Shown piece by piece: positions 2,042-52,064 of a stretch of 64,000 bases of DNA. The DNA lies in NCBI GenBank assembly GCA_964019135.1, contig OZ025249.1, positions 13,975,088 through 14,039,087 on the forward strand, given 5' to 3'. The DNA comes from Arenicola marina. Lineage: Eukaryota; Annelida; Polychaeta; Arenicolidae. Position 1 is the first letter of the stretch. Every line of letters starts with the position of its first letter. The notes under the pieces were generated by a model. That model was not told where the DNA came from. It worked only from the letters and a program-made list of their open reading frames with translations, and searched no databases. The position numbers and the translations under genes are program-made.

Positions 2042-2284
2042 GCAGGGTTTGGCTGGCCGACTTCGATGTGGTTGTGGTGGACGGATCATCCAGGTCCCAC
2101 ACATGTGGTCAGTATACAGGAATCGTACCTCAGGCCTCCACGAGTAACGCCTGGATAGGTACAGCCAACATCAGCTGTGACGCACATCCGATCGGCAGAT
2201 ACGTCATCATAGAGAAGACCGGTAGCAGTGGCCCTCATATAATGACGCTGTGTGAAGTTGTTGTCACCGGACATGAGTACCACA
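2042..2284 (+). CDS. Exon: second half of FTP lectin domain
   Basis: 81-codon phase 1-1 exon, acceptor CACTAG, donor A|GTAAGT. It contains the family hallmarks WLADFDVVV, a Cys in HTCGQY, a Cys in NISCD, GRYVII and the closing LCEVVVTG. It is the exact length counterpart of 47701-47943 on the minus strand. FTP domains usually bind fucose or related sugars; no ligand is shown here. Confidence 0.88.
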
Positions 2285-51700: not shown

Positions 51701-52064
51701 CAACCAACCATAGCTCAATTGATAGCGTATTGAGCTTGTTTTTGGTTTGAGGTTGGAGCAATACGTGAGCAATACCTGACATAGTTATATTGCTCTTCCA
51801 CATGATGGATTGACCAATAGGACTTAAACAGCCTGGCGTCATCCTACGGTTTATATATAGGTATATATATATATCCCATATATATATTTCATACATCACT
51901 TGACGATATATACATATATATATATACATATATATTGGCATTGGAAGAGTTGATATGACTGTCTGATAGTGATTCTGTCACCCACCTGAGACGTTATATC
52001 TGGCTATGATCATACAGGTGATGGCGGCAACCAGGAAGTGGAGCCTCCCTCCGCCGGTCGCCAT
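32846..52064 (-). CDS. Receptor-type protein tyrosine phosphatase, FTP/EGF/FN3 ectodomain, tandem PTP domains
   Basis: Complete by exon reading: 25 exons (52064-51986, 50826-50674, 49678-49454, 47943-47701, 47050-46964, 46584-46432, 45204-44875, 44414-44270, 43662-43595, 42935-42724, 42215-42128, 41735-41659, 41332-41296, 41035-40938, 40725-40597, 39930-39782, 39377-39242, 38723-38580, 36797-36701, 36499-36414, 35392-35258, 34518-34396, 33894-33746, 33465-33330, 32920-32846). They sum to 3354 nt, with all phases agreeing. Predicted residues: signal 1-26, EGF-like 27-77, FTP 78-233, Cys-rich 234-262, EGF-like 263-313, FN3 314-423, membrane helix about 446-471, D1 about 566-850, D2 about 851-1093. 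It should remove phosphate from tyrosine at the plasma membrane in response to glycan or protein ligands. D1 keeps the catalytic loop (Cys757). D2 looks like a regulatory pseudophosphatase. Uncertain point: the donor of the exon ending near 36414. Confidence 0.92.
33900..34850 (-). repeat. Intronic repeat 'taattaaccattgcttt' and flanks
   Basis: Within this intron-rich stretch about twelve 17-bp units lie at 34647-34845, upstream of exon 22 in the intron between exons 21 and 22. The rest is intron apart from exon 22 at 34396-34518. Confidence 0.8.
35505..36052 (-). repeat. 17-bp minisatellite in RPTP intron
   Basis: About 32 units of 'ttagcgctatcaaggtg' in the intron between exons 20 and 21. 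Each has the palindrome AGCGCT. Variation is mostly at one position (aagg/aaga/aaag). Confidence 0.95.
37075..38578 (-). repeat. 24-bp minisatellite starting at the exon 18 donor
   Basis: About 60 units of 'caccgcatgactcccacccccagc' fill the intron right up to the donor of exon 18 (38579-38578). 24 bp without stops gives open frames of about 250-290 codons on both strands; these are repeat translations. A 145-bp higher-order block recurs at about 37800-38290. Confidence 0.95.
38580..42215 (-). CDS. RPTP exons 11-18: PTP domain D1 (likely catalytic)
   Basis: Eight exons. Key elements in order: [15 protein letters not shown] (pTyr loop; Phe589 where Tyr is usual), [43 protein letters not shown] (Asp724 kept, usual WPD Pro is Leu), [12 protein letters not shown] (Cys757, Arg763), [14 protein letters not shown] (Q loop). 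The intron between HC and SAG is at the conserved RPTP position. All catalytic residues are present, so D1 is probably active, though the altered WLD loop may change its rate. Confidence 0.92.
38800..38830 (-). pseudogene. Relic copy of exon 17 3' end
   Basis: Minus strand reads RNMIQDK followed by GTAAC, copying the end of exon 17 and its donor. A second relic lies at 39126-39155. Both are inside the intron after exon 17. Confidence 0.75.
38840..39030 (-). mobile_element. tRNA-derived SINE with target-site duplication
   Basis: 191 bp, flanked by 15-bp direct repeats 'tcccagcatatttga' (38825-38839 and 39031-39045). tRNA-like head on the minus strand (ctggtgtagtggttagcgc, ggttcgaatccgggc), then a core with 'gtgcacaaaagtggcctaaa' and a 'cattccattc' tail. 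Inserted within the relic exon 17 end. Confidence 0.88.
39126..39155 (-). pseudogene. Second relic copy of exon 17 3' end
   Basis: Minus strand 'aggatgaatatgatctaagccaaggtaac' matches the exon 17 end with a stop in the copied frame. The spacing to the real donor at 39241 is about 115 bp, a tandem unit that includes intron sequence ('aatgtgcgtgacatgagatgatgg'). Confidence 0.75.
39480..39725 (-). pseudogene. Relic tandem copies of the exon 16 3' end (catalytic Cys border)
   Basis: Two decayed copies of the exon 16 end plus donor lie in the intron that follows it. The copy at 39640-39720 reads [17 protein letters not shown] then VVHG with a GTATGG donor, so the catalytic Cys is Gly. The copy at about 39485-39550 is more decayed. 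Both carry a donor-like GTATGG. Confidence 0.8.
40300..40530 (-). repeat. 48-bp tandem repeat in RPTP intron
   Basis: Three to five units, 'atagcgatccgtgtttgctgtaaatgatgtgccatacacctataat', in the intron between exons 15 and 16. Confidence 0.8.
41890..42025 (-). mobile_element. tRNA-derived SINE fragment in RPTP intron
   Basis: Minus strand 'cgccccgtggtctagtaggtagcg' (A box) and 'gtggttcgacccccacc' (B box). Lies between exons 11 and 12. Different head sequence from the 38840 element. Confidence 0.55.
42724..43662 (-). CDS. RPTP exons 9-10: juxtamembrane and wedge region
   Basis: Exon 9 (43595-43662) gives [16 protein letters not shown] and exon 10 (42724-42935) gives [23 protein letters not shown] and [20 protein letters not shown]. 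The last segment is the helix that precedes RPTP D1 domains. NVYQNA holds a tyrosine (YQN, Grb2-type). Confidence 0.85.
44270..44414 (-). CDS. RPTP exon 8: stalk and transmembrane helix
   Basis: Thr/Pro stalk ([12 protein letters not shown]), then a long Ile/Val/Ala helix ([20 protein letters not shown] onward) and a basic RRR continued by the next exon. Unrelated to the membrane exon of the plus-strand paralog. Confidence 0.9.
44875..45204 (-). CDS. RPTP exon 7: fibronectin III
   Basis: 110 codons. [32 protein letters not shown] and VTTLS are the FN3 core. Donor CCCA|GTGAGT. Homology with the plus-strand paralog continues into the following intron to about 44745. Confidence 0.92.
45840..45912 (+). 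repeat. 36-bp direct duplication
   Basis: 'tctcactctggggactcccatgaagaccaagaagg' occurs twice in tandem in the intron between exons 6 and 7. Trivial but clear. Confidence 0.8.
46432..46584 (-). CDS. RPTP exon 6: EGF-like module
   Basis: 51 codons, [30 protein letters not shown] and TNCG. An Asn in ENCT is a possible glycosylation site. Confidence 0.9.
46964..47050 (-). CDS. RPTP exon 5: Cys-rich module
   Basis: 29 codons, [16 protein letters not shown] and KRPQC. Preceded on its 5' side by a minisatellite of its own acceptor (47051-47490). Confidence 0.88.
47051..47490 (-). repeat. Minisatellite made of exon 5's 3' splice site
   Basis: About nine units of 45-50 bp on the minus strand ('ttgtgttccacaggttgtgatgagtgtctccatgactgctctcttgtcc') end at the true acceptor of exon 5. 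They read as [14 protein letters not shown] fragments of the exon start. Same unit family as 2500-2835. Confidence 0.9.
47701..47943 (-). CDS. RPTP exon 4: FTP domain, second half
   Basis: 81 codons with [33 protein letters not shown] and LCEVVVTG. Completes the FTP beta-sandwich. Intron sequence after it is conserved with that after 2284. Confidence 0.92.
47944..49453 (-). other. RPTP intron 3, nothing further seen
   Basis: Plain intron between the two FTP halves. No repeat, RNA or exon recognised. Confidence 0.6.
49454..49678 (-). CDS. RPTP exon 3: FTP domain, first half
   Basis: 75 codons. Starts [12 protein letters not shown] (family NVA.GK..QS), then YQAVDG, a Cys in [20 protein letters not shown] and VTVFNTDN. 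These match the fucolectin/tachylectin-4/pentraxin-1 signature (AVDG, W.VDLG, I..V.V.N). Confidence 0.92.
49795..50275 (-). repeat. 41-bp minisatellite in RPTP intron 2
   Basis: About eleven units of 'cgtcccgtccacagggaatataacaactgtaggccgaccct', with two sub-types (the other has 'catcgcgcccatagtcaatata'). Confidence 0.92.
50674..50826 (-). CDS. RPTP exon 2: EGF-like Cys-rich module
   Basis: 51 codons, phase 1-1: [20 protein letters not shown] then [12 protein letters not shown] and EACQI. Seen in many invertebrate lectin-type and RPTP ectodomains before an FTP domain. Confidence 0.9.
   Translation of the reverse strand, partial: PPVCSGRLVTVSSSATVTVAPPVIRTRESVRESVLRTVPVCSPGAEKPVR
51040..51490 (-). 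repeat. 26-bp minisatellite in RPTP intron 1
   Basis: About seventeen units of 'ctgtcgacgtggtgtcatgtcactgg', containing SalI-type GTCGAC palindromes. Homogeneous at the right end, diverged at the left. Confidence 0.92.
51986..52064 (-). CDS. RPTP exon 1: signal peptide
   Basis: Start chosen because AACATGG is a good context and the next residues form a signal peptide ([20 protein letters not shown]). An upstream in-frame ATG exists in the same open frame, but its extension crosses a (GT)n tract. Donor CAG|GTGGGT, phase 1. Confidence 0.85.

Follow-up and report, generated by a model that had tools for sequence, protein, structure and literature searches.

A 64,000-bp stretch of the genome of the polychaete Arenicola marina (positions 13975088-14039087 of contig OZ025249.1, here called C2; hereafter the window) carries two receptor genes that share an ectodomain and differ in their intracellular parts: a short receptor on the plus strand, which we named SR0 (2042-6028), and a receptor-type protein tyrosine phosphatase (RPTP) on the minus strand (52064 to ~32.85 kb). 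Genome-wide searches, which cover the 867-Mb, 762-contig assembly, revealed that SR0 belongs to a large cluster. What a preliminary description of this DNA had taken for a pair of receptors is instead a set of 23-29 short receptors versus two RPTPs. On balance, the sequences favour a system with one ectodomain (EGF-like, FTP, Cys-rich, EGF-like and FN3) and two insides, in which approximately 23-29 receptors would signal through three-tyrosine tails and the two RPTPs would set the phosphotyrosine of these tails.

The shared ectodomain and the two cytoplasmic designs

The gene models of SR0 and the RPTP were rebuilt by reading exon junctions. Within the window, the two genes share an FTP2 exon encoding the second half of an FTP/F5-8C-like domain (2042..2284 in SR0 and 47701..47943 in the RPTP), a Cys-rich exon (2836..2922 and 46964..47050), an EGF-like exon (3343..3495 and 46432..46584) and an FN3 exon (4362..4688, Pfam fn3 E 1.5e-5, and 44875..45204). 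The equal exon lengths reported earlier are exact for FTP2 (243/243 bp), Cys-rich (87/87 bp) and EGF (153/153 bp), but the FN3 exons (327/330 bp) differ by one codon. The exon junctions are phase-consistent in both genes and their phases match, the coding DNA of the shared exons is 86-92% identical at the nucleotide level, and the introns align in part (2012-3522 and 4270-4796 on the SR0 side). Over 265 codons, the synonymous divergence (dS) is 0.21 and the ratio of nonsynonymous to synonymous divergence (dN/dS) is 0.53 (bootstrap 0.34-0.85); for the EGF exon by itself the ratio is 2.0, from a small number of changes. The two ectodomains thus descend from one gene and have been under constraint since, and their likeness is not due to chance. 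In a comparison of 391 codons, the RPTP is no more distant from SR0 (87.9% nucleotide identity) than short receptors are among themselves (84.7-87.7%) when the recent pair of loci C and F (96.2%) and locus A, represented by three exons only (83.7-97.9%), are set aside. Both kinds of receptor therefore have the closely related ectodomains that characterize paired receptors.

SR0 is a real gene, as described, but its start lies outside the window. Two further ectodomain exons with splice sites were found on the plus strand in the 30 kb before it, an EGF-like exon at approximately -7218..-7066 and the FTP1 exon at approximately -4417..-4193. Their lengths as read from the junctions, 153 and 225 bp, equal those of their counterparts in the RPTP (50674..50826, with 92% amino acid identity, and 49454..49678). 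Neither exon was found in bases 1-2041 of the window. The candidate explanation that SR0 is a fragment without the FTP1 and first EGF exons was rejected, because both are present upstream of the window. The RPTP itself starts with a signal-peptide exon at 51986..52064, to which a related exon was found at window coordinate 160755. As a separate observation, the start of the Cys-rich exon and its 3' splice site have been amplified as a 46-50-bp minisatellite at 2492-2860, 23205-23824 and 47036-47477, so that these three copies of the intron contain numerous decoys for it.

The FTP domain aligns to F-type lectins (FBP32, E 1.6e-6; AAA 1k12, E 7.8e-4), and the RPTP exceeds the cut-off of Pfam F5_F8_type_C_2. 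F-type lectins carry a fucose motif of the form His...Arg-x-Asp-x4-Arg. The His is kept here; the first Arg has been replaced by Thr in all six FTP1 exons compared (RPTP, SR0, B, C, F and L044), and the second is Arg in SR0 and Val in the RPTP, which has thus lost both arginines. Because of this loss, a lectin function of the family, implied by the earlier term 'lectin ectodomain', is unsupported. The FTP1 differences are mostly confined to a few short stretches, as expected of binding loops. Since the dN/dS values of FTP1 range from 0.46 to 0.8, with the recent pair C/F (1.32) as the exception, we claim no positive selection on this exon.

The RPTP frame is stop-free through 17 exons, or 797 codons, to the end of the first phosphatase domain (D1), and the exons of the second (D2) come after it and end at a stop near 32.85 kb, which bears out the tandem PTP domains seen earlier. 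The RPTP transmembrane (TM) exon (44270..44396) has no significant similarity to the TM exon of the short receptors (best E 0.24). It is followed by two juxtamembrane exons (43662-43595 and 42935-42724), seven D1 exons (39242..42215) and the D2 exons (approximate limits, 32849..38730). Among solved structures, D1 best matches PTPRS (E 1.4e-125) and LAR (E 2.5e-124), with CD45 scoring lower. The D1 signature HC(X)5R(S/T) is present with its Cys and Arg (VVHC^SAGVGRTG), and the catalytic Asp is also kept. D2 is altered at the acid and in the P-loop (WPK and HCQDGAARCG) and is read as an inactive pseudo-phosphatase. The shared ectodomain is therefore, as originally stated, joined to two different cytoplasmic designs, a short tyrosine tail and tandem PTP domains. 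Two local duplications were also seen in the D1 region: the D1 signature exon ends, together with its splice donor, inside a 115-bp tandem repeat at 39036-39264, and a degraded partial copy of the exon with the WLD loop (39727-39587) adjoins the intact one.

A second RPTP of the same lineage is located at C2:15048385-15063206. Two close and full copies of the D1 exon that encodes the WLD loop exist in the genome, one in the window and one at C2:15062372 (96%), and the next match is at 61%; the second juxtamembrane exon likewise has two genome matches, at 100% (window) and 90%. The ectodomain exons given to the second RPTP by position and strand are 80% (FN3), 77% (FTP2) and 72% (FTP1) identical to those of the window RPTP. 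Thus, the inside exons compared between the two RPTPs are conserved (90% and 96%), whereas the outside ones are not (72-80%). Degraded partial copies of the WLD exon are present in the second RPTP at C2:15062563 and C2:15062709. The PTP-exon complement of the genome is very large (155 PF00102 matches; 150 of 771 candidates scored), with many matches in tandem on contigs C7, C2 and C8, and looks like a lineage-specific RPTP expansion.

The receptor cluster and the three-tyrosine tail

The SR0 exon that encodes the TM segment and the start of the tail (5455..5729, ending ..EDSYLTLIEM) has 29 strong matches in the genome (E <= 7.3e-10; 41 candidates, all scored), and all of them lie at C2 13.468-14.735 Mb, forming one cluster of 1.27 Mb. 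The next-best matches were two partial pieces (E 0.003), located next to the two most distant copies, and after them a match of E 0.23 on another contig. Close copies of the ectodomain exons were found at C2 13.5-15.06 Mb in numbers of at least 33 (FTP1), 28 (FTP2) and 25 (FN3); these counts are lower bounds, and the copies need not all be working genes (two of the 25 FN3 copies are partial and one has a stop). Judged from position and strand, 23 of these FN3 exons precede 23 different TM exons at distances of 1.0-6.8 kb on the same strand, and the other two of the 25 belong to the RPTPs. The single cluster typical of paired receptors is thus seen here, with the window RPTP inside it and the second RPTP ~0.3 Mb outside.

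Six more loci with an SR0-type TM exon, designated A-F, are present in the 294 kb around the window. A tail exon was detected at the search threshold in A, B, C and F, and closer reading identified a diverged one in D and E. Loci C-D and E-F (L023-L025 and L027-L030) form an inverted duplication (window coordinates 74517-97569 and 122952-145852), and C and F are identical across the TM and tail codons. Upstream of its TM exon, SR0 has a short stalk exon (5148..5186), with likely counterparts in C and F (E 0.034) and B (E 1.1).

The SR0 tail ends in an exon at 5969..6028 that reads EPPYVNPETIYADIMDPST-stop. The YLTL/YVNP/TIYADI-type tail first noticed in SR0 proved to be conserved: all 15 of the related tails that were read, counting SR0, keep three tyrosines. 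These tails come from 15 of the 29 loci with TM exons (12 aligned loci, including SR0, A, B and C, plus D, E and F), and their consensus is Y-x-T/N-L/V/M, Y-V/E-N-P and Y-x-D/E-I. In all 12 aligned loci, the tail exon lies ~240-265 bp downstream of the TM exon, and the three sites read Y[LE]T[LV], YVNP and Y[ATL][DE]I. The sites of D and E would be YENM, YENP and FYEDI or LYEDI, the tail exon being taken as the farther of two candidates. An alignment of 13 sequences shows no change in any of the three tyrosines or in the Asn and Pro of site 2, and D has kept the tyrosines at a dS of 0.43-0.56 from four other short receptors. The expectation that relatives would carry this type of tail was therefore borne out at the level of paralogues within one genome. 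The possibility that the SR0 tail is a chance open reading frame was rejected, because the related tails are conserved. The predicted tail splice (5729^5969) is phase 0/0, with an unusual donor (gtttgt) and the acceptor tttacag; both recur in A, B, C and F, and close variants (gttcgt; tatacag and tatatag) occur in other loci. Upon shuffling of the 81-amino-acid tail, the combination of all three tyrosines in YxxI/L/V or YxN contexts, a TxYxx[VI] site and clustering arose at 7.5e-5, by criteria set after the tail had been seen.

The tail was also compared with the immunoreceptor tyrosine-based switch, activation and inhibitory motifs (ITSM, ITAM and ITIM). The ITSM pattern TxYxx[VI] occurs in SR0 as TIYADI, and 10 of the 12 aligned loci have TIY[AT][DE]I. 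An ITAM consists of YxxL/I-x6-12-YxxL/I. The spacing in SR0 does not fit this pattern, its arms being 13 residues apart, and D and E carry YENM at site 1; L035 and L036, which have a 3-amino-acid deletion, have a spacing of 10 and fit it. The ITIM pattern [SIVL]xYxx[ILV] is absent from SR0 and fits D (LFYEDI) and E (SLYEDI).

A 44-bp minisatellite (5999..6540, plus strand) starts inside the SR0 tail exon, and its first unit is the coding end of the tail. As 44 is not divisible by three, the frame shifts with each unit, and another frame of the array reads GSQYLNQGSVYADIRDPST-stop. Similar arrays follow the tail exon in A, B, C and F, and YADI-type units also follow it in the other aligned loci; no such array was seen after the tail of D. 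An origin of the array from a tail once repeated in frame was considered but not supported: similarity is highest in the coding frame, yet random substitution reaches the same score in 7.5-13% of cases.

Proposed pairing and alternatives

In the proposed pairing, ligand binding would cluster the short receptors, and a Src-type kinase would phosphorylate their tails. The Y-x-N-P site may then recruit a Grb2-type adaptor, and an SH2 protein of the ITSM/ITIM type may bind at T-I-Y-A-D-I. The RPTP would recognise the same or overlapping ligands via the shared FTP1 region and set the phosphotyrosine level of the short tails, or of their kinase. The most likely role of such a system would be surface recognition of microbes or other cells.

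The FTP1 region provides one case of a homogenised ectodomain between the two kinds of receptor. The FTP1 protein sequence of the RPTP is 95% identical to that of an exon at C2:14189959, and the next full copy is at 79%. By position and strand, this exon belongs to a short receptor with FTP2 at 14191601, FN3 at 14194690 and TM at 14196311 (L038). The surrounding stretch (RPTP 49338-49788 versus C2:14189850-14190300) is 96.7% identical over 451 bp; the first 239 bp, intron included, contain no difference, and the rest contains 15. Over 328 bp of the FN3 exon and its flank, identity between this short receptor and the RPTP is 88.4%. Three other short receptors, SR0, B and C, reach 83-86% identity to the RPTP in the FTP1 region. 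Because identity is so much higher around FTP1, with 239 identical bp, than at FN3, a recent exchange or conversion appears to be the simplest reading. This exchange favours, without proving, an overlapping specificity of the RPTP and this short receptor.

Several observations weigh against the proposed system. Neighbouring paralogues can exchange sequence without any functional link. In D1, the WPD loop is WLDKSRP, with Asp kept and Pro not, and KNRY is KNRF, so that the predicted catalytic activity of this domain is uncertain. For the TM and tail codons, dN/dS is 0.40-1.07 in nine chosen pairs, the interval reaching 1 in seven of the nine, and B versus C gives 1.32; constraint on this part as a whole appears weak, and selection on the tail would rest mainly on its tyrosines. 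Some members show signs of decay: L034 has a stop within the TM exon, C and F both have an 11-bp deletion at its start, and both D and E have, closer to the TM exon, a second tail-like exon that is interrupted by a stop at site 2. In SR0, the first EGF-like exon is without one Cys that B, C and F keep, and the 83 kb from the previous gene to the first known SR0 exon yielded no exon for a signal peptide.

The foremost alternative is that the ectodomain is common by descent and has been homogenised among cluster neighbours, and that the short receptors function independently of the RPTP, with no pairing. The closest kin of the PTP part of the RPTP lies outside the cluster, the near-identity involves one exon region and one short receptor, and the copy ratio is ~2 to 23-29, all of which would fit separate action. 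However, a complete RPTP has been retained inside the cluster, and its intracellular exons are conserved relative to its sister, whereas the ectodomain exons compared differ by 20-28%. We regard this alternative as somewhat unlikely. A more specific form of pairing, in which the RPTP would be an inhibitory partner equipped with the family's own ectodomain and matched to particular short receptors by FTP1 exchange, such that ligands would be discriminated by the balance of kinase and phosphatase rather than by an ITIM-recruited SHP, is in our view likewise somewhat unlikely.

Alternatively, both kinds of receptor may drive signalling in the same direction, with a CD45-like RPTP switching on the Src-type kinase responsible for phosphorylating the short tails. 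CD45 combines tandem PTP domains, an active D1 and an inactive D2, and the window RPTP likewise has an active-looking D1 and an inactive-looking D2. CD45-like RPTPs and parts of ITIM/ITAM pathways are also, according to the available part of a Botryllus study, expressed in the ampullae of this animal (PMC12065747). However, D1 scores best against PTPRS/LAR and lower against CD45, and we consider this explanation improbable. That SR0 is a decaying copy with an unused tail, in a family that may otherwise be functional, would agree with the missing Cys and signal exon, the unusual donor and the lesions in other members, but is very improbable given that seven exons in the window and two upstream are open with splice sites, that the gtttgt donor is kept in relatives and that dN/dS is below 1 versus the RPTP.

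Vertebrate paired receptors (SIRP, LILR, KIR, Siglec and CEACAM) resemble the present system in being clustered families with a shared ectodomain, alternative cytoplasmic ends and exchange between members. In those families, a charged TM segment or an ITAM adaptor takes the place of the tyrosine tail, whereas here PTP domains in the receptor itself do so; the vertebrate domains are of the Ig or C-type lectin kind instead of FTP/EGF/FN3. LAR, PTPRS and PTPRD (type R2A) have an FN3 exon directly before the TM exon, as found here, and PTPRS and LAR are the best matches of D1; the window RPTP differs from this type by FTP, Cys-rich and EGF domains outside, the WLD loop and HCQDGAARCG in D2. The uroplakins UPK2/3, compared with PTPRQ, and tunicate R3-type sequences that lack a PTP domain likewise show an RPTP-related ectodomain in a second gene, where a short tail replaces the PTP domain and the exon phases match (PMC5242461). 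They are of the R3 type with FN3 domains, and the available part of that paper mentions no large cluster or three-tyrosine tail.

Among invertebrates, the fester/FcoR receptors of Botryllus are also clustered; FcoR tails (53 loci) carry ITIM, hemITAM or core YxxI/L/V motifs (PMC12065747). Their ectodomains are of the Ig/sushi type, and in the part of that study available to us the CD45-like RPTPs are pathway parts, with no statement that they share an ectodomain with the receptors. An inhibitory receptor with ITIM-like sites is described in the accessible part of a report on amphioxus (PMC8211107). In a Gigantopelta study that covers lophotrochozoan gene-family expansions, PTPRK appears with fucolectin and MEGF in the abbreviation list of a figure on expanded families; the available part of that paper does not mention a short-tail counterpart (PMC7895826). 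Our search of the open-licence literature found no description of three-tyrosine receptors in 23-29 copies sharing an RPTP ectodomain. A protein database search with SR0 gave 4449 candidates, none with E <= 1, in a collection taken to hold no close animal relatives.

If the proposed pairing is correct, paired-receptor logic, in which a shared outside is joined to opposing insides, emerged among FTP/EGF/FN3 receptors, the phosphatase being part of the receptor itself. The origin of the balance between activation and inhibition would then become testable by comparing the RPTP with the short receptor at C2:14.19 Mb, which form a ready pair. Even without pairing, a cluster of 23-29 three-tyrosine receptors sharing an RPTP ectodomain would represent a sizeable candidate family for immunity or self-recognition.

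Other features of the window

GC-rich minisatellites at 14136-15920 and 37088-38565 create long open frames (439 and 294 amino acids), which were not taken as genes. Three tRNA matches (Rfam) were detected in repeated units at 28572-28642, 29277-29347 and 29657-29727 and are probably tRNA-derived short interspersed elements. A relic of another ectodomain copy, consisting of the end of an FTP2 exon and the Cys-rich-exon minisatellite, is present on the plus strand at 23043..23824.

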